A program made the position numbers and the translations under genes. The notes beneath the pieces were generated by a model that worked only from the letters and a program-made list of their open reading frames with translations, was not told the DNA's origin and made no database searches. 32,271 nt of DNA, taken from positions 1 to 32,271 of the forward strand of contig NZ_JAGN01000017.1 of NCBI RefSeq assembly GCF_000526675.1. The letters are read 5' to 3'. Source of the DNA: Atopobacter phocae ATCC BAA-285. Its GTDB lineage: Bacteria > Bacillota > Bacilli > Lactobacillales > Aerococcaceae. Below, piece after piece: positions 7,097 to 15,258 of the stretch. The number at the start of each line of letters is the position of its first letter. The first letter of the stretch is position 1.

Positions 7097-7537
7097 GTGG
7101 CAAATGTAGAAAGGAAGGCTCGTGTTGTATCAGTTGATGGAATGAAGGTAGTTAGTCATGTACGTGATTTTGAATTTATTATGGATGAACCCGAAAAATT
7201 AGGTGGAACAAATCAGGGAATGAATCCTATTGAAGCAATGCTTTCAGCAGTAGGTGGCTGTAAAATAATTGTTGCTCGAAGTTTTTCAAAATTACACAAT
7301 ATTCATTTAAAGGATATTACAGTTGAAGTTAGTGGAATTCTAGATACAGACGGTTTTCTAGGGAAAAATCCAGAAGCAAAAGTAGGGTTATCAGAATTGA
7401 AATCTATTTATCATATTAAGGCAGATAATACTAAAGAAGAAATTGAGGCATTTGTTGATTTTATTGAAAAAACATGTCCTGTCATTGATACTATTTCACA
7501 TGCTCCTAAATTAAAAGAAGAAATTCATTTAAATTAA
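7097..7537 (+). CDS. OsmC family protein (putative thiol peroxidase)
   Basis: Members of the OsmC/Ohr/YhfA fold reduce organic hydroperoxides using two cysteines. Here Cys55 (A-V-G-G-C-K) and Cys127 (K-T-C-P-V-I) occupy the two conserved positions, and M-N-P-I-E-A-M-L-S precedes the first, as in the YhfA-like branch. The length of 146 aa is typical. The start is GTG at 7097, five bases after GGGAGGGA; the overlapping ATG at 7095 runs into a stop at once. It is a single gene between its own promoter and a bidirectional hairpin. OsmC proteins of this branch are poorly characterised, so the substrate is unknown. Confidence 0.88.
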   Translation: MANVERKARVVSVDGMKVVSHVRDFEFIMDEPEKLGGTNQGMNPIEAMLSAVGGCKIIVARSFSKLHNIHLKDITVEVSGILDTDGFLGKNPEAKVGLSELKSIYHIKADNTKEEIEAFVDFIEKTCPVIDTISHAPKLKEEIHLN

Positions 7538-8992: not shown

Positions 8993-9579
8993 TATTCGCC
9001 CTCTTCCTCCATAAATTCAACGCGTCCATTCTCTAATGATTTGATCCGACAAATGGAATAAACATCCACTCCCGCATCTTCTAATTGCTGGCGACCGGGT
9101 TGAAATGACTTTTCAATAATGATTCCCACACCTGCAACCGTTGCTCCAGCTTGTCGAACTAACTCTACTAAACCACGTGCCGCTTCTCCATTCGCAAGAA
9201 AATCATCGATAATTAAAACATGGTCTTCAGCATTTAAATATTTTTTAGAGACCATCACTTCACTCGTCACATCTTTCGTATAACTGTGAACTAACGTTTG
9301 ATACCGGTCATCGCGTGCCATTGTTGAAGGTTGTTGTTTCTTAGCAAAAAGCATTGGCACATTGAAACGATTAGCCACCATAATTGCTGGAGCGATTCCA
9401 CTCGCTTCAATCGTTAAAATTTTAGTAATCGGCTGTCTTTTAAAATAATCAAATAAATCACGTTCTATTTCATTCATAACGTTAGGATCAATTTGATGAT
9501 TCAAAAACGAATCAACTTTTAACACATTATTAGGATAGACTTCACCATCTTTTAAAATGCGTTTTTTTAAATAATTCAC
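8992..9579 (-). CDS. xpt: Xanthine phosphoribosyltransferase
   Basis: It joins xanthine to PRPP to form XMP for purine salvage. The PRPP-binding motif is in I-I-D-D-F-L-A-N-G-E-A-A, and the family-specific L-K-V-D-S-F-L-N-H-Q-I-D-P is near the N-terminus; I-E-A-S-G-I-A-P-A and I-E-K-S-F-Q-P-G-R are also conserved. An ATG exists at 9603, but the ribosome binding site GGAGG (9588-9592) lies inside that extension and is 8 bases from a GTG at 9579. Starting there gives 195 aa, the usual family length. It is first gene of xpt-pbuX, behind a consensus promoter and a PurBox. Confidence 0.95.
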   Translation of the reverse strand: MNYLKKRILKDGEVYPNNVLKVDSFLNHQIDPNVMNEIERDLFDYFKRQPITKILTIEASGIAPAIMVANRFNVPMLFAKKQQPSTMARDDRYQTLVHSYTKDVTSEVMVSKKYLNAEDHVLIIDDFLANGEAARGLVELVRQAGATVAGVGIIIEKSFQPGRQQLEDAGVDVYSICRIKSLENGRVEFMEEEGE

Positions 9580-9649
9580 ACTTACATCCTCCACTTCTTT
9601 CATTCATTATTATTAAACATTTCGTCTGTTACCGCTTCTTAAAAACACT

Positions 9650-9662
9650 AAATACGAACTAT
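9650..9662. promoter_or_regulatory. PurBox (probable PurR operator) in the xpt leader
   Basis: AAATACGAACTAT on the plus strand (ATAGTTCGTATTT on the minus strand) matches the PurBox consensus AWWWCCGAACWWT at 12 of 13 positions. It lies about 20 bases downstream of the -10 box, a position suiting repression by PurR. Confidence 0.65.
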
Positions 9663-9681
9663 TTTTATAAATGTTAACTAA

Positions 9682-9709
9682 ATTATACGCTTATGACACT
9701 TTTTGTCAA
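9682..9709 (-). promoter_or_regulatory. Promoter of xpt-pbuX
   Basis: TTGACA (9704-9709) and TATAAT (9682-9687), both perfect consensus boxes, are separated by 16 bases on the minus strand. Confidence 0.88.
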
Positions 9710-9754
9710 TCATAAATTATAAAAAGATTGATGGATTAAAATAAAAAATTCAAT

Positions 9755-10327
9755 TTATAAAAGAATCCCTTTTTCAGTCACAATATGTTGCACTACTTGG
9801 TCAAAATGATCAGTTGGAATATTAGAAAATAATTGGGTACTATGTGTTAAAGCAATTGTTTGATTTGAAAAATAGGCTATATAACGATCATAGTATCCAC
9901 CGCCATATCCCAAACGGTCGCCATTGTACGAAAAAGCTAGTCCTGGCACAATCATTACATCTATCTCCATTGAAGATAATTCGAATGTTTTCTCAACAAT
10001 GGGCTCTTCTAAATAAAAACTACCCACCTTATTTTTTTCAACTTGTTGATATGAGTCAATCAAGTGAAAAGTCATTGTTTTTTGTTTAGGATTTACTTTT
10101 GGAATAGCTATTTTCTTTCCTTCCTTCCATGCTTGGGCAATTAACTCTCTTGTATCCCACTCTGTCGAAAATGAAAGATACGTGCCAATGACTTGTGCCT
10201 CTTTCCAAATAGATGACTGAATAAGTTGCTGGTGCAATAAATGAGAAACCTGTTGTCGTTCAATTTGATCAAATTGTTTTAAAGATTCTCTAACTTGTTG
10301 ACGCAAAACTTCCTTTTCTTTCTTCAT
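9755..10327 (-). CDS. 5-formyltetrahydrofolate cyclo-ligase
   Basis: It converts 5-formyl-THF with ATP to 5,10-methenyl-THF, returning a storage folate to one-carbon metabolism. The hallmark is the R-L-G-Y-G-G-G-Y-Y-D-R-Y loop at 138-149, preceded by M-I-V-P-G-L-A-F. An N-terminal basic stretch K-K-E-K-E and the G-T-Y-L-S-F-S-T-E-W-D segment also fit the family. Length of 190 aa is normal. It lies upstream of xpt on the same strand, but xpt has its own strong promoter in the gap; no convincing terminator is seen between them. Confidence 0.93.
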   Translation of the reverse strand: MKKEKEVLRQQVRESLKQFDQIERQQVSHLLHQQLIQSSIWKEAQVIGTYLSFSTEWDTRELIAQAWKEGKKIAIPKVNPKQKTMTFHLIDSYQQVEKNKVGSFYLEEPIVEKTFELSSMEIDVMIVPGLAFSYNGDRLGYGGGYYDRYIAYFSNQTIALTHSTQLFSNIPTDHFDQVVQHIVTEKGILL

Positions 10328-10697
10328 TTATACCCCCTAAACTTCTAATAATAGTAAAATTTTTAATTTATATCATACCAATTTCATTGAAAAATTACTA
10401 GTGTGAAATCTGAATAGTCTTCAATTACTTAAATAACTTCTTCCTTTTTATAAATTAGCTCCTATTTAAAGAAATAAATTCATATCCTTTTGCGTCGTCT
10501 TCTTTGCAAACATTTGTTAAGAAGCGTACAATTAAACTAGAATATGCTATATATTCCGTCATTTATTTAGTTTGTATTTGCTATTATCACTTTTATTACC
10601 ATTTACCTCTCTCGTTTTTACTATTTTAACTAAACGCATCGCTTCATCTCATCACTATGTTTACTTTACTCTCGTCAAATTTAAGGAGGAATATACT
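10328..10697 (+). other. Intergenic region with the promoter and long leader of the DUF2177-fakAB-DUF1295 unit
   Basis: About 370 bases between divergent genes. The only clear signal is the promoter at 10504-10532. The leader after it is about 160 bases; I see no known riboswitch or strong hairpin in it. An open frame running into the next gene from a TTG at 10572 has no ribosome binding site and is not treated as coding. Confidence 0.6.
10504..10532 (+). promoter_or_regulatory. Promoter of the three-gene DUF2177 / fatty-acid-kinase-like / DUF1295 unit
   Basis: TTGCAA (10504-10509) and TACAAT (10527-10532) with a 17-base spacer on the plus strand. Confidence 0.7.
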
Positions 10698-11096
10698 ATG
10701 CATTATATTCGTGCATATATCATTACATTTATTGTCTTTTTTGCGATCGATATCGTTTGGCTCGTATTTATCGCTAACAATCTTTACCGAAATAATATCG
10801 GTCATTTAATGGCAGAAAAAACTAATTGGATAGCTGCGATTATTTTTTACTTAATTTTTATTGCTGGTCTCGTATTTTTCGCTATTCATCCTGCAATTGA
10901 AAAGGAAAGTTGGCAATATGCATTACTAGCCGGTGGATTTTTCGGTTTATTATGCTATTCGACATTTGACTTAACCAACTTAGCTACTTTAAAAGATTGG
11001 CCTTTAAATGTGACCTTAATTGATATTACTTGGGGCACATTTATTAATGCGATCACCGCATGGATTAGTTTTTATCTTTTAAATTGGTTCAAATAA
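10698..11096 (+). CDS. Small membrane protein, DUF2177-like
   Basis: It is a protein of 132 aa with four hydrophobic segments (about 5-27, 45-65, 73-93 and 108-128). The first ends in D-I-V-W-L-V-F-I-A and a later segment contains C-Y-S-T-F-D-L-T-N, both patterns I associate with DUF2177, a family without known function. The start is the ATG at 10698, eight bases after a strong AAGGAGG; a longer frame upstream lacks a ribosome binding site. It is the first gene of a unit with a fatty-acid-kinase-like fusion and a DUF1295 protein, so a membrane-lipid role is possible but unproven. Confidence 0.8.
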   Translation: MHYIRAYIITFIVFFAIDIVWLVFIANNLYRNNIGHLMAEKTNWIAAIIFYLIFIAGLVFFAIHPAIEKESWQYALLAGGFFGLLCYSTFDLTNLATLKDWPLNVTLIDITWGTFINAITAWISFYLLNWFK

Positions 11097-11113
11097 TTTT
11101 TAGAGGTGTTTTT

Positions 11114-12913
11114 ATGAAGAAAGAAAATCAATTGACTCATTTAGACGGGCAACAAATTTATCAAGCCTTTCTTTCTGGTGCATATGAAATTATTGATCAT
11201 AGAGAAGTTTTAAATCGCATCAATGTATTCCCCATTGCTGATGGCGACACAGGTAGTAATTTATCTTTTACAATGCAATCAATCATTGATAATGCACAAC
11301 CTAGTTCCTTACCAAAAGAATCCTTACAATCAATCGCAGATGCCGCATTAATGGGAGCAAGAGGAAATTCAGGAATTATCTTTGCTCAGTTAATCAATGG
11401 TATTTATATGGCGATAAATGAAGAATCGACGATTAGTCTGTCGTCATTTATACAAGCCATTCAATCTGCTAAACAATATGCGTATCAAGCTATTTCTCAA
11501 CCAGTAGAAGGGACTATCATTACTGTCATTAGCGATTGGGCAGATGCATTGCTATCGATGGATCCGACATCACTTACTTTTGAAGAACTACTCGAACAAT
11601 CCATCATTGCCGCAACTGTTTCTTTAAATGAGACCACTTCAAAATTGAAAGCATTGCAAGATGCTAATGTTGTTGATTCCGGTGCTCAAGGCTTATTATA
11701 TTTTATCCAAGGGATGCTGTCTTATATAAAAACAGGCCATGTTCACCTACCAGATAACTCAACAAATGATATAAACACTCTTCCATTTCCGGTAAGTGCA
11801 CACGAAGATTTCGATGAAAATTATCGGTATTGTGTTGAAGGGATTTTGCAAGGAACTTCACTGGATAAACAGCAAATTAAATCCGCCATTCAATCATTAG
11901 GAAATTCCTTAATTATTATTGGTCATACTCAAAAAATTCGAATTCACATTCATACCAATCATCCCGAAAAATTATTCGATATACCAAAAACATTCGGTAC
12001 TATTATTTTTCAAAAAGCGGATGATATGAAAAGACAATATGAAAGTATTCATCGCCGGAAACATCCCATTGCATTACTAACTGATTCCATCGCTGACATA
12101 CCTAAGGAATTGATGGATCAATATCAAATTCATTTACTACCATTAAATTTAATTATTGAGCAAACAAATTACTTAGATAAAGTAACCATATCGCCTCAAT
12201 ATTTTTATCAATTAATGGATGAGTTAACGGATTATCCTTCTTCATCACAACCTACTGTGAAAGAAGCTGAGAAAGTTCTAACTGAACTAGCTGAACATTA
12301 TCCATCGATTATTGCAATCACTGTATCTAGTCAGATGAGTGGCACATACGAAACATTAGTTAAAGCAAATAAACAAGGCAAATTGGCACAGCATCAAATT
12401 GAGATTATTGATTCTAAACAAAACTCAGGAGCACAAGGATTAGTTGTTAAAGCTGCTGCTGAAGCAATTGATGCTGGTTATACTTTTGAAGAGGTAGTCA
12501 AACGTGTAAAAGAAAGTATCAAAAAAACGAAAATTTTTGTTAGTGTACCTACTTTAAAGTACATGCTAAAATCCGGACGAATTGGTAAAGCTCAAGCATT
12601 TGCGGCAGATGTCGTTAATTTAAAACCGGTTGTATCCATTGACCAGGACGGTAATGGCATTGTCATTGGAAAAACTTTCAGTATTAATGGTAATACTAAA
12701 AAAATACAAAGCTTGGTCAAAAGTATGATGCAAGAAGGACAAATTAAAGAATATGCCATCGTTCACGCGAATGGTGGGGATAGAGTTCAAGCGTTTGAAA
12801 CATTCTATACTCAATTAATTGGACAAGCACCCGCTTATATTATGGAAATTTCACCGATTGTTGCAATGAGTGCCGGATTAGGTACTGTCGCTATCGCATT
12901 AATTACAGAATAA
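11114..12913 (+). CDS. DhaL (FakA-like) - DegV (FakB-like) fusion protein, possible one-chain fatty acid kinase
   Basis: Two normally separate proteins are joined. Residues 1 to about 200 form a DhaL/FakA kinase domain with the ATP-Mg loop A-D-G-D-T-G-S-N (Asp43, Asp45), G-A-R-G-N-S-G and D-S-G-A-Q-G-L. A FakA-type middle domain follows, with R-I-H-I-H-T-N-H-P at about 276-284, whose paired His residues match those important in FakA. From about 318 to the end is a DegV/FakB domain: L-L-T-D-S-I-A-D-I-P, S-S-Q-P-T, S-S-Q-M-S-G-T-Y-E (405-413) and a late K-S-G-R-I-G-K. In known systems FakB holds a fatty acid while FakA phosphorylates it. The separate FakA C-terminal domain is absent, replaced by DegV. 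The ATG at 11114 has ribosome binding site AGAGGTG. The substrate is inferred from the two families. Confidence 0.9.
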   Translation: MKKENQLTHLDGQQIYQAFLSGAYEIIDHREVLNRINVFPIADGDTGSNLSFTMQSIIDNAQPSSLPKESLQSIADAALMGARGNSGIIFAQLINGIYMAINEESTISLSSFIQAIQSAKQYAYQAISQPVEGTIITVISDWADALLSMDPTSLTFEELLEQSIIAATVSLNETTSKLKALQDANVVDSGAQGLLYFIQGMLSYIKTGHVHLPDNSTNDINTLPFPVSAHEDFDENYRYCVEGILQGTSLDKQQIKSAIQSLGNSLIIIGHTQKIRIHIHTNHPEKLFDIPKTFGTIIFQKADDMKRQYESIHRRKHPIALLTDSIADIPKELMDQYQIHLLPLNLIIEQTNYLDKVTISPQYFYQLMDELTDYPSSSQPTVKEAEKVLTELAEHYPSIIAITVSSQMSGTYETLVKANKQGKLAQHQIEIIDSKQNSGAQGLVVKAAAEAIDAGYTFEEVVKRVKESIKKTKIFVSVPTLKYMLKSGRIGKAQAFAADVVNLKPVVSIDQDGNGIVIGKTFSINGNTKKIQSLVKSMMQEGQIKEYAIVHANGGDRVQAFETFYTQLIGQAPAYIMEISPIVAMSAGLGTVAIALITE

Positions 12914-12923
12914 AGGAGCATTT

Positions 12924-13802
12924 ATGGATAAAAAAAGAATTGTAATCTATTGTTTATTATTTATATCTATCTTATTACTAGCTACATATGGAGGAACTCG
13001 AATTGGTCTTGATGGCCTCCTCGTTTCGTTCTTATTTACATTGCTATATTTCACTGGAATCTTTATTATCGCTACTATTGTCAAAGACAACTCGATTGTC
13101 GACATGGGCTGGGGCCTTGGATTTGTATGTGGGAGTTGGATTACCTTAATGACTACTGCAAAACCGACTTTATTATCTTATATTATTGTTGGGTTTATCT
13201 CGGTTTGGGGAATTCGTTTGTCAGTACGTTTAATTAAACGAAACTGGGGGAAACCTGAAGATTTCCGCTATGCTAATTGGCGAAAAGAATGGGGCGATAA
13301 AGTAGTCATCATTGCATTCTTTAGAGTATTTATGGCACAAGGTTTAATCAACTTTTTAGTTGGTTCAGTTGCTTATTCTATTATTAAATACAACACTTTT
13401 TATACAGGAATGAATCATTCATTTATTGTATATGTTGGATTGGTTATTGCATTCGTTGGCCTCTTTTTTGAAGTAGTTGGTGATGAACAATTAAGACGTC
13501 ACATCGCACGTGGTTCTGGCACACTACTTCAAACTGGATTGTGGTCAATCACACGTCATCCTAATTACTTTGGTGAAATTCTTATATGGATTGGTTTATA
13601 TCTATGTAGTTTAACGTTAGTCTTAACTAACTCCGTTCATTTAATTTACTTTATCGCTTTAGCCATTTCGCCATTACTAATGACCGTTGTTCTCACAAAA
13701 GTATCAATTCCTTTACTCGAAGATCACATGGCTGAATATAACGAGTGGGAAACATACAAACAACGGGTTCCAATGCTTATCCCCATCAAATGGCGCAAAT
13801 AA
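12924..13802 (+). CDS. DUF1295 membrane protein (steroid reductase / ICMT-like fold)
   Basis: It is a 292-aa polytopic membrane protein with about seven hydrophobic segments. Diagnostic motifs are D-M-G-W-G-L-G-F near residue 60, F-R-Y-A-N-W-R near 114-120, and T-R-H-P-N-Y-F-G-E at 210-218. That C-terminal motif is shared with 3-oxo-5-alpha-steroid reductases and isoprenylcysteine/phospholipid methyltransferases, which act on lipid substrates with NADPH or SAM. The exact reaction is unknown. Its ATG follows the fusion gene's stop by 10 bases with ribosome binding site AAAGGAG, and a hairpin terminator ends the unit after it. The link to a fatty-acid-kinase-like gene favours a lipid substrate. 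Confidence 0.88.
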   Translation: MDKKRIVIYCLLFISILLLATYGGTRIGLDGLLVSFLFTLLYFTGIFIIATIVKDNSIVDMGWGLGFVCGSWITLMTTAKPTLLSYIIVGFISVWGIRLSVRLIKRNWGKPEDFRYANWRKEWGDKVVIIAFFRVFMAQGLINFLVGSVAYSIIKYNTFYTGMNHSFIVYVGLVIAFVGLFFEVVGDEQLRRHIARGSGTLLQTGLWSITRHPNYFGEILIWIGLYLCSLTLVLTNSVHLIYFIALAISPLLMTVVLTKVSIPLLEDHMAEYNEWETYKQRVPMLIPIKWRK

Positions 13803-13838
13803 AGCAAAAACATTCTCATTATTTTTATTACACAAAAA

Positions 13839-13884
13839 CATCTCATCTCGATTTAAATCGATTGAGATGTTTTTTTATTTTAGT
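13839..13884. terminator. Terminator after the DUF1295 gene
   Basis: ACATCTCA (13839-13846) pairs with TGAGATGT (13864-13871), with an inner TCGAT/ATCGA stem, followed by a run of T on the plus strand. A shorter T tract on the minus strand could also serve convergent cutC. Confidence 0.82.
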
Positions 13885-13971
13885 CGATAATATATTTAAG
13901 TTAAGACATATTTTTTTAAAAAATAATCGAATATTCACTATTCAGTTAATGAATGTTTCTCCACTTTATTT

Positions 13972-14706
13972 TTATAATAAATCCTTTAAAGAACGAACGC
14001 GATGTTCGCTAACAATTTGAATACGAGCAGTTCCATCAATAGCATACGATACGTTCTCGCCAATCGTTGTTGGATCTTCCCAATAACCTTTACAACTTGA
14101 ATGAACTTGTGTAGCTAAAGGAACATCTTTTAAAAATACCTCAATATTGTCTTCAGTTAGTCCCGCTCCTGGCAAAATTTCAATTTGCCCATTAGTTGAC
14201 TGAATTAATTGATTTAAGTAAGTTCTTCCTTCAAATGCACTAGATTGTCGTCCACTAGTTAGAATTCGATGAACTCCCAACTCAATTAACTGATTCACTA
14301 CTTTTTCTGGTTGTTTGGCGACATCAAATGCTCGATGAAATACGCTCTCTTTCTGATGTTTTTTAATCAAATCAACCATTTGTTGGGCAAACAATTGATC
14401 CAGTTCGCCTGTTTCTGTCAGTGCTCCAAATGCTAACCCATCTGCTCCTGCTTCTAATAGTTTCTCTGCATCATGTAACATCACTTCTTTTTCAATTGTT
14501 TGATAATAAAAACCGCCACCTCGAGGACGTATCATACAAATAATTGGAATTGTCGTTGAGGATTTAGCCCGTTCTAACGTCGCAATTGTCGGTGTAAGAC
14601 CACCTAATGATAGTGCACTATTTAACTCAATTCGATCAGCTCCACCTCGTTCGGCAACCATACAATCTTCAGCACTTCCCGCACAAACTTCCAATACTCT
14701 TTTCAT
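13972..14706 (-). CDS. cutC: CutC family protein
   Basis: CutC is a TIM-barrel protein linked to copper tolerance; its biochemical activity is unsettled. The sequence opens with the family signature L-E-V-C-A-G-S-A-E-D-C, then G-G-A-D-R-I-E-L-N-S-A-L and I-R-P-R-G-G-G-F-Y-Y, all highly conserved. H-R-A-F-D and L-T-S-G-R-Q lie in the second half. Length (244 aa) is normal. The ribosome binding site AAGGAG precedes the ATG. The gene stands alone, convergent to the DUF1295 unit; no copper ATPase or regulator is near, so a copper role is not supported by context. Confidence 0.93.
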   Translation of the reverse strand: MKRVLEVCAGSAEDCMVAERGGADRIELNSALSLGGLTPTIATLERAKSSTTIPIICMIRPRGGGFYYQTIEKEVMLHDAEKLLEAGADGLAFGALTETGELDQLFAQQMVDLIKKHQKESVFHRAFDVAKQPEKVVNQLIELGVHRILTSGRQSSAFEGRTYLNQLIQSTNGQIEILPGAGLTEDNIEVFLKDVPLATQVHSSCKGYWEDPTTIGENVSYAIDGTARIQIVSEHRVRSLKDLL

Positions 14707-14777
14707 TTATTTTCTCCTTTTCTGTCTATTACACCTCTATTTTACTTTATAACACATTTCATTGAGTAAGTGAATTT

Positions 14778-14806
14778 TTGTAATTAAAGTGTAAATATGG
14801 TACGAT
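14778..14806 (+). promoter_or_regulatory. Promoter of the usp-sulP unit
   Basis: TTGTAA (14778-14783), a 17-base spacer and TACGAT (14801-14806), preceded by TGG giving an extended -10 box. Confidence 0.65.
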
Positions 14807-14847
14807 AGAGTAATGCTCATCATAACGTTCCCTTAAGGAGGAAATAA

Positions 14848-15258
14848 ATGAAAAAAATAATTGTTGCATTTGATGGTTCAGAACATGCCATTCATGCACT
14901 AAATGAAGCCAAAAAATTACAAATTGGATTCCCAGAAGCTACTATTACTGTATTAGAGGTTTTCGATATTCATCAATTAAAAGATCAAGACTATGATTTA
15001 TCAAAATCTTACGAGCAACGTCAAACCGAACGATTAGCCATTTTAAATAATCAACTTCGTCCATTATTGGATAACTTTGAAGGAATTGTTTTATTGGGTG
15101 ATCCTGCTGCTCAAATTATTAATCATATTAATACGAATGACTATGACTTACTAGTTATCGGCACACGCGGTTTAAATGCTCTTCAAGAACTCGTATTAGG
15201 CAGTGTCAGCCACAACGTCATTCAGCACATTGCCATACCGACGTTAGTCGTTAAATAG
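14848..15258 (+). CDS. Universal stress protein, UspA family
   Basis: It is a 136-aa single-domain Usp. It opens with a beta strand, I-I-V-A-F-D-G-S-E-H-A, where the Asp contacts adenine in ATP-binding members. It ends with the ATP-binding signature G-T-R-G-L-N-A-L-Q-E-L-V-L-G-S-V-S-H-N-V and I-P-T-L-V-V-K, matching G-2x-G-9x-G-S/T, so it probably binds ATP. The ribosome binding site AAGGAGG is well placed. The sulP transporter begins 13 bases after the stop, so the two are cotranscribed and the Usp may modulate that transporter. What the Usp senses is not evident. Confidence 0.92.
   Translation: MKKIIVAFDGSEHAIHALNEAKKLQIGFPEATITVLEVFDIHQLKDQDYDLSKSYEQRQTERLAILNNQLRPLLDNFEGIVLLGDPAAQIINHINTNDYDLLVIGTRGLNALQELVLGSVSHNVIQHIAIPTLVVK

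Follow-up and report, generated by a model that had tools for sequence, protein, structure and literature searches.

In Staphylococcus aureus FakA, the middle domain bears the triad Cys240-His282-His284 and FakA_C, the third domain, is related in structure to FakB and serves as its binding site (PMC9136124). The carboxylate/phosphate site of FakB1 comprises Thr62, Ser95, Arg173 and His270, with a Ser-His-Thr-carboxylate network (PMC8892158), and the arginine, R173, is required for phosphorylation (PMC9136124, PMC8892158). DegV can also occur as part of a protein with several domains (PMC12288450). In Chlamydomonas, DUF2177, DUF1295, DUF1365 and two Cfa genes need SAK1 for their induction by singlet oxygen (PMC4067076, the only paper in the open-access literature found to name both DUF2177 and DUF1295), and DUF2177 is among ten frequent neighbours in heliorhodopsin operons (PMC11109279). 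Here, we analysed a stretch of 32,271 nucleotides of Atopobacter phocae ATCC BAA-285 (contig NZ_JAGN01000017.1, positions 1 to 32,271; hereafter the window), in which three adjacent genes (hereafter the trio) encode a DUF2177 membrane protein, a one-chain fusion of FakA-type kinase domains with a DegV/FakB-like domain, and a DUF1295 membrane protein.

We read the trio, tentatively and with a probability of about 0.48, as a membrane-lipid maintenance operon for light and singlet-oxygen (photo-oxidative) stress, in which the fusion would be a self-contained acyl kinase and DUF1295 a lipid reductase. An earlier sequence-only reading of the window had described three genes, the middle one a FakA/FakB-like fusion, and had proposed the uptake, phosphorylation and modification of a fatty acid or other lipid. 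The gene calls and the fusion were confirmed by the open reading frames and by Pfam matches, which included Dak2, FakA-like_M and DegV domains with the catalytic residues kept. Photo-oxidative membrane-lipid stress, which that reading missed, frames the trio better than general lipid uptake, and we prefer it because of the links to photolyase, heliorhodopsin and the ChrR islands set out below. The sequence-only reading knew of no pathway with these three genes; in agreement, neither the trio nor a FakA-FakB one-chain fusion was found described in the accessible text of the open-access literature. Each of the protein families is known, and the conserved trio and its association with light appear to be undescribed. 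The features of the locus are as follows:

10504..10532, + strand, promoter-like TTGCAA-17-TACAAT, unproven, matching 9/12 consensus positions
10683..10689, + strand, ribosome-binding site AAGGAGG of the DUF2177 gene, read from the sequence
10698..11096, + strand, DUF2177 membrane protein gene (132 residues; PF09945, 165.8 bits, cut-off 26.9)
11114..12913, + strand, one-chain FakA_N / FakA_L / DegV (FakB-like) fusion (599 residues)
11231..11719, + strand, DhaL (Dak2) domain of the fusion, binding adenosine triphosphate (ATP) (residues 40-202; PF02734, 118.8 bits; DxDTGxN at residues 43-49)
11822..12046, + strand, FakA middle domain (FakA-like_M) of the fusion (residues 237-311; PF21645, 63.6 bits; Cys240-His278-His280)
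12068..12907, + strand, DegV/FakB-like domain of the fusion, at the place of FakA_C (residues 319-598; PF02645, 212 bits)
12924..13802, + strand, DUF1295 membrane protein gene, 'long' subfamily (292 residues; PF06966, 179.4 bits, cut-off 20.4)
13844..13869, + strand, intrinsic terminator stem of 10 pairs, about -15.7 kcal/mol, followed by a T run

A sample of the host's order (295 genomes, 75 genera) was searched separately with the fusion, DUF2177 and DUF1295; the list of full-length-fusion genomes, the genus codes and the genome sizes were transcribed by hand into the scripts. Loci, genomes and genera are given by working codes (L, G and g, respectively) where they must be told apart. A full-length or nearly full-length fusion was found in 69 genomes from 22 genera, which are not independent events, 15 of them coming from one genus (g24, called Listeria-like for holding a DUF1295 identical to that of a Listeria record). 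DUF2177 was present in 67/69 fusion genomes versus 3/226 others (one weak match and two broken or relic copies), and DUF1295, counted above 100 bits and leaving out ten genomes whose matches scored about 70 bits at most, in 69/69 versus 1/226 (G218). In G218, the fusion is fragmented and DUF2177 interrupted (L151), and G026 retains only DUF2177 fragments (L152); the trio decays as a unit. The gene order at 70 fusion loci was DUF2177-fusion-DUF1295 in 55, DUF1295-fusion-DUF2177 in seven and partial in eight, and all trio genes found there share the strand of the fusion. Co-occurrence and adjacency across genomes exceed chance, and this neighbourhood survey, which the sequence-only reading had proposed as a check, found the three genes kept together, the opposite of the outcome that would have refuted that reading.

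Beyond the order, DUF2177 occurred in 8/348 genomes of a wider sample of the phylum, the host among them; three of the other seven, from other families, have the trio arranged as fusion-DUF1295-DUF2177, which is a third order (L118, L120, L121). In Acetoanaerobium noterae (Clostridia), the gene order is that of the window. In Listeria innocua, a record labelled as a plasmid has the DegV fusion, DUF2177 and DUF1295 next to one another, and the control genome of Lactococcus lactis matches DUF2177 and DUF1295. The spread is patchy within genera: among the many genomes sampled of g21, only G265 carries the trio (L078, with a fusion 58% identical to that of the window), and G122, the one further genome sampled from the window's genus, lacks it, which suggests that the trio has been transferred and lost. 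The sole relative detected in the named collection, with a scan that detects close relatives only, was Facklamia sp. 7083-14-GEN3, whose fusion is 63% identical to that of the window. As an aside, two records labelled as plasmids, NZ_LR134402.1 (L106, Listeria, 569 kb) and NZ_CP154629.1 (L150, Acetoanaerobium, 2.6 Mb), look like chromosomes or chromosome pieces.

The association with light-damage genes was assessed with one genome for each of the 75 genera, always a trio-bearing one for trio genera, and these genomes were chosen when the outcomes for photolyase and heliorhodopsin had already been seen. Photolyase, searched for as PF03441, which may overlook other photolyase classes, was found in 16/22 trio genera versus 5/53 others (P 1e-7), and heliorhodopsin in 8/22 (one of them the 37.9-bit fragment with stops of G203, which is included in the counts) versus 0/53 (P 2e-5). 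When any sampled genome of a genus was counted, the figures were 17/22 versus 9/53 for photolyase and 8/22 versus 1/53 for heliorhodopsin; over all 295 genomes, they were 49/69 versus 29/226 and 18/69 versus 6/226, respectively. A bias in family or genome size was rejected as the cause of this link, both excesses surviving permutation within family, within size bin and within both; habitat and kinship below family rank remain in the association, the strata being family and genome size.

Individual loci show the same tie. In Facklamia sp. (L002/L076), the nearest named relative, DUF2177 is preceded on its own strand by a heliorhodopsin gene (PF18761, 335.9 bits), with 49 bases between them, and this locus is the only one of the trio loci scanned with the heliorhodopsin query to have a heliorhodopsin in its stretch. 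In G575 (L122), heliorhodopsin is divergent from DUF2177, and neither the fusion nor DUF1295 lies in the 9.8 kb seen. At 15/15 loci of g24, a photolyase gene, broken in one (G148), stands directly upstream of the trio; at L069, L070, L071 and L126 a photolyase gene lies 3-6 kb away, with crtM/crtN at the first two. In L120 and L121, the trio has a peroxiredoxin gene after it, in L081 a superoxide dismutase gene lies 2.5 kb upstream of it, and at L118 it is directly followed by a gene with B12-binding domains (9059-9712); similar domains form CarH/LitR-type light sensors. The heliorhodopsin operons previously described (PMC11109279) are matched by the adjoining DUF2177 in Facklamia sp. and G575 and differ in that the fusion kinase and DUF1295 are not named in the accessible parts of that report. 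In Listeria, lmo0591 was listed with other predicted membrane proteins in a study of the sigma-B regulon (PMC2248587) and assigned to the operon LMRG_00271-LMRG_00273 (PMC6737072), and the response to visible/blue light is largely sigma-B-dependent (PMC6874125). From the gene order, we infer that lmo0589-0591 are the trio of Listeria.

DUF2177 was matched in 59 plasmid records, at least six of them Gram-positive, from which 10 alphaproteobacterial loci were picked by hand, one or two per genus; their plasmid gene tables are incomplete and the counts cover the stretches shown. A ChrR-family anti-sigma-E gene lies within about 3.4 kb of DUF2177 at 10/10 loci. A flavin adenine dinucleotide (FAD)-dependent oxidoreductase was likewise present at 10/10, DUF1365 at 8/10, DUF1295 and a Cfa-type gene at 5/10 each, and an alpha/beta hydrolase and a photolyase at 3/10 each. 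The trio resembles RpoE-ChrR singlet-oxygen islands in DUF2177, which is beside ChrR throughout, and in the frequent DUF1295 and occasional photolyase; it differs from them in the fusion kinase, which is not annotated in those stretches, and in DUF1365, which is found in 0/22 trio genomes (one per genus, host included).

The fusion shares with FakA+FakB of S. aureus the DhaL ATP domain, the middle domain with its Cys-His-His triad and a DegV domain with TDS, S/T-x-Q-P, SGT and GR motifs, and differs from them in having both partners in a single chain, in which DegV occupies the position of FakA_C, and in its place in a three-gene operon. No FakA-like_C (PF13684) match was found in the fusion, the single one of the host genome being on contig 1. 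The NCBIfam models for YloV, FakA and FakB1 match the fusion without reaching their cut-offs (FakA NF038248, 176.1 for a cut-off of 975; TIGR03599, 285.7 for 396.1; FakB1 NF038249, 132.1 for 350). Residues were compared over 71 fusions, of which the order survey supplied 70 (window included) and a Listeria record the remaining one. The DxDTGxN motif was invariant in 71/71, as were Cys240, His278 and His280, the counterpart of the FakA triad; because of these invariant positions the kinase side looks active.

The DegV domain was compared in 69 full-length fusions, the two short ones being excluded, with FakB positions (Thr61, Ser93, Arg170 and His266) in the numbering of the 4x9x chain, which agrees with the alignment. 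Position 61 is Ser or Thr in 69/69, position 93 is Ser in 69/69 (Ser409 in the window's fusion) and position 170 is Arg in 69/69 (Arg489). In contrast to FakB, the network His at position 266 is not found in any of them (Ser in 56, Gly in 12, Asn in one, His in none; Ser586 in the window's fusion). By this alignment, the carboxylate-holding pocket is altered, uniformly across copies. Elsewhere, the host genome encodes one normal FakA and two separate DegV/FakB proteins, both of which keep the His, so the fusion is an additional copy. In a PHROGs search, the DegV and DUF1295 parts matched only families of unknown function.

The structure models of the two membrane proteins, each built from two sequences, were too poor to rely on. 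For DUF2177, the low-confidence model (mean predicted local distance difference test score, pLDDT, 58.4) has four long helices, which fits the four-helix protein foreseen from the sequence, and its profile retrieved nothing from the PDB at E up to 1. The DUF1295 model (mean pLDDT 44.7) did not resolve the fold. The RHPNYFGE motif pointed out earlier in DUF1295 is present at residues 211-218, and its RHPNY part is invariant in 24/24 aligned members; the sterol reductase 4quv has RHMNYFGD at the same position. In Pfam, the window's protein reached 24.9 bits for Steroid_dh (threshold 22.6) and 20.2 for PEMT (threshold 25), both weak, and among the 24 members at E up to 1, DUF1295 and Steroid_dh matched 24/24 and PEMT and ICMT 23/24. 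Against the PDB, the 24-member profile found steroid 5-alpha-reductases (E 3e-4), ICMT (2e-3) and sterol C14 reductases (6e-3 to 1e-2). DUF1295 resembles the sterol C14 reductase/steroid 5-alpha-reductase/ICMT superfamily in an RHxNYxG(E/D) motif and weak profile matches, and differs in scoring low; the motif tentatively favours a reductase.

Two kinds of DUF1295 occupy this slot of the trio, a 'short' one of about 257 residues and the 'long' one of about 292 residues found in the window. In a tree of 67 rows, the long kind forms one clade on a long branch with 100/100 support, and the short rows do not form one resolved clade. By the score used, no DUF1295 stands beside the fusion at 7/70 loci, and all seven genomes carry one elsewhere (partial in G203). 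Because absence next to the fusion was always paired with a copy elsewhere, the enzyme of this slot can be swapped or moved and was not lost in the sample. In G010, a relic of the short type lies between the fusion and DUF2177 (L091, 5561-5689) and another DUF1295 gene is found elsewhere in the genome; one subfamily was likely replaced there by the other.

In the mechanism that we propose, light or reactive oxygen would damage unsaturated acyl chains, and the operon would be controlled by these stimuli in the host. DUF1295 would most likely reduce a double bond or an oxidised lipid group with reduced nicotinamide adenine dinucleotide phosphate (NADPH), in the manner of a sterol C14 reductase. 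The DegV domain would bind the fatty acid set free, probably one that is modified or released, and the DhaL and middle domains would phosphorylate it in cis while DegV holds it. The resulting acyl-phosphate would re-enter phospholipid synthesis via PlsY/PlsX, and DUF2177 may be a small membrane partner, perhaps one that presents the lipid. A more specific version, which we consider doubtful, is that the trio is a widespread, mobile Gram-positive operon that repairs or rebuilds photo-oxidised membrane lipid, with DUF1295 reducing the chain, the kinase with its altered pocket reactivating the modified fatty acid and DUF2177 presenting it, as the counterpart of the alphaproteobacterial singlet-oxygen islands.

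Several observations weigh against the photo-oxidative reading. In the host, the surroundings of the trio in the window contain no recognised light gene, the photolyase gene is on another contig (contig 7) and no heliorhodopsin match was found in the genome. Among the trio genomes, 20/69 are without a PF03441 photolyase and 51/69 without heliorhodopsin. Photolyase was found in no trio genome of g3, g7, g10, g30, g42 and g45, and g3, g30 and g45 have no heliorhodopsin either. The trend is reversed in g30, whose photolyase is confined to non-trio genomes, its three trio genomes lacking it, and in g33 five genomes lacking the trio carry heliorhodopsin as well. Squalene/phytoene (carotenoid) synthase, which stands for a further defence against singlet oxygen and was counted as SQS_PSY above about 190 bits, is not enriched (2/22 trio genera versus 15/53; low-side P 0.03 on permutation within families). 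In Listeria, the photolyase lmo0588 was reported not to be induced by ultraviolet light (PMC9087598), and the blue-light paper mentions none of lmo0588-0591 in its main text (PMC6874125). No light-expression data for the trio itself in any Gram-positive were found in the open-access literature. DUF1295 matches reductases only weakly, with a similar score for ICMT, which is a methyltransferase. The FakA/FakB-like nature of the fusion, as first read, is supported by the catalytic residues kept; a fatty-acid ligand is not established, FakA_C being missing and the network His being absent in 69/69, for which reason a fatty acid is not assured. The genera without photolyase and the missing Gram-positive light data slightly lowered our confidence.

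The main rival, which we rate as rather unlikely, is general fatty-acid scavenging, in which the fusion would be another Fak paralogue, the membrane proteins would aid uptake or saturate the chain, and the light link would be a by-product of habitat. It draws on the Fak domain make-up and residues of the fusion, on the host's normal FakA and two DegV/FakB proteins, which suggest that Fak chemistry is probably in use, and on the association tests, which were stratified by family and size with habitat uncontrolled. However, that normal set could already cover scavenging, and the hypothesis explains neither why photolyase and heliorhodopsin stay in excess after stratification by family and size nor the alphaproteobacterial ChrR islands, where DUF2177 and often DUF1295 occur and the stretches shown have no annotated fusion. 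If, instead, the fusion were a sensor or regulator, its DegV part would bind a lipid signal, deliver no phosphorylatable carboxylate and tune the two membrane enzymes. The replacement of the network His by Ser, Gly or Asn in every full-length copy and the missing FakA_C docking domain would suit such a role, yet a pure sensor would need neither the ATP-site residues and Cys-His-His triad, invariant in 71/71, nor the FakB arginine, kept in 69/69, and we regard it as distinctly improbable.

The altered carboxylate site could also indicate a module that handles a lipid other than a fatty acid, such as an isoprenoid or a sterol-like one, with DUF1295 as reductase or methyltransferase and the kinase acting on a different carboxylate, and the profile matches of DUF1295 to steroid 5-alpha-reductase, ICMT and sterol C14 reductases point the same way. 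Its chance is nonetheless slim, as no squalene/phytoene synthase match was found in the host genome and the family is not enriched with the trio. Finally, the trio might serve a Gram-positive version of furan fatty-acid synthesis (UfaM, UfaD and UfaO; PMC7380195), with DUF1295 and DUF2177 as accessories and the fusion recycling the product. At the alphaproteobacterial loci, the company of DUF2177 fits this pathway, with DUF1365 (the UfaO family), an FAD oxidoreductase and a Cfa-type methylase at 8/10, 10/10 and 5/10, respectively. Against it, DUF1365 is missing from all 22 trio genomes, no CMAS match (UfaM, the Cfa-type methylase) was found in the host genome, and Cfa, counted only above about 200 bits with weaker matches left out (G065, 88.6 bits), occurs in 3/22 trio genera versus 21/53 others, with no deviation within families. 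The CMAS and DUF1365 results largely exclude the furan pathway for the host, UfaD (an FAD desaturase) not having been searched for; we consider this explanation highly improbable.

Should photo-oxidative lipid maintenance prove right, non-phototrophic Gram-positives would have a dedicated answer to photo-oxidised membranes, with a bearing on light-based disinfection and food preservation. It offers a shared, testable role for an unstudied kinase fusion and for DUF2177 and DUF1295, two widespread but uncharacterised domains, ties fatty-acid activation to light/singlet-oxygen stress, and provides heliorhodopsin research with a concrete set of lipid-enzyme partners.

With regard to carotenoids, a positive link was discarded in spite of the crtM/crtN genes at L069 and L070, given the synthase counts over genera. 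Conversely, the trio tends to occur where the squalene/phytoene synthase is missing, and this faintly hints that it may be an alternative to carotenoids.

Concerning the layout of the locus, the genes are separated by 17 bases (DUF2177/fusion) and 10 bases (fusion/DUF1295) on one strand. One promoter and one terminator had been claimed to enclose the trio. The terminator, with its stem and T run, looks real; the promoter match is present, and a single promoter is not established by the sequence because promoter-like sites in 9500-15000 did not exceed the number expected from shuffles (25 versus 27.3). An Rfam scan of the window gave no match above gathering scores. The trio is flanked on the opposite strand by a 5-formyltetrahydrofolate cyclo-ligase gene upstream and a CutC gene downstream. 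The host genome comprises 1.67 Mb in 82 contigs and is 97.5% complete.

Further upstream of the trio in the window, 7097-7537 is presumably an OsmC-like gene; L046 and L048 have open reading frames resembling it, about 1.7 and 3.7 kb away from their trios. On the opposite strand in L046 (8307-9309), the trio is immediately followed by genes for a DUF3159 protein and a small membrane protein resembling DUF1475, and open reading frames in L043, L037 and L048 looked similar by eye.

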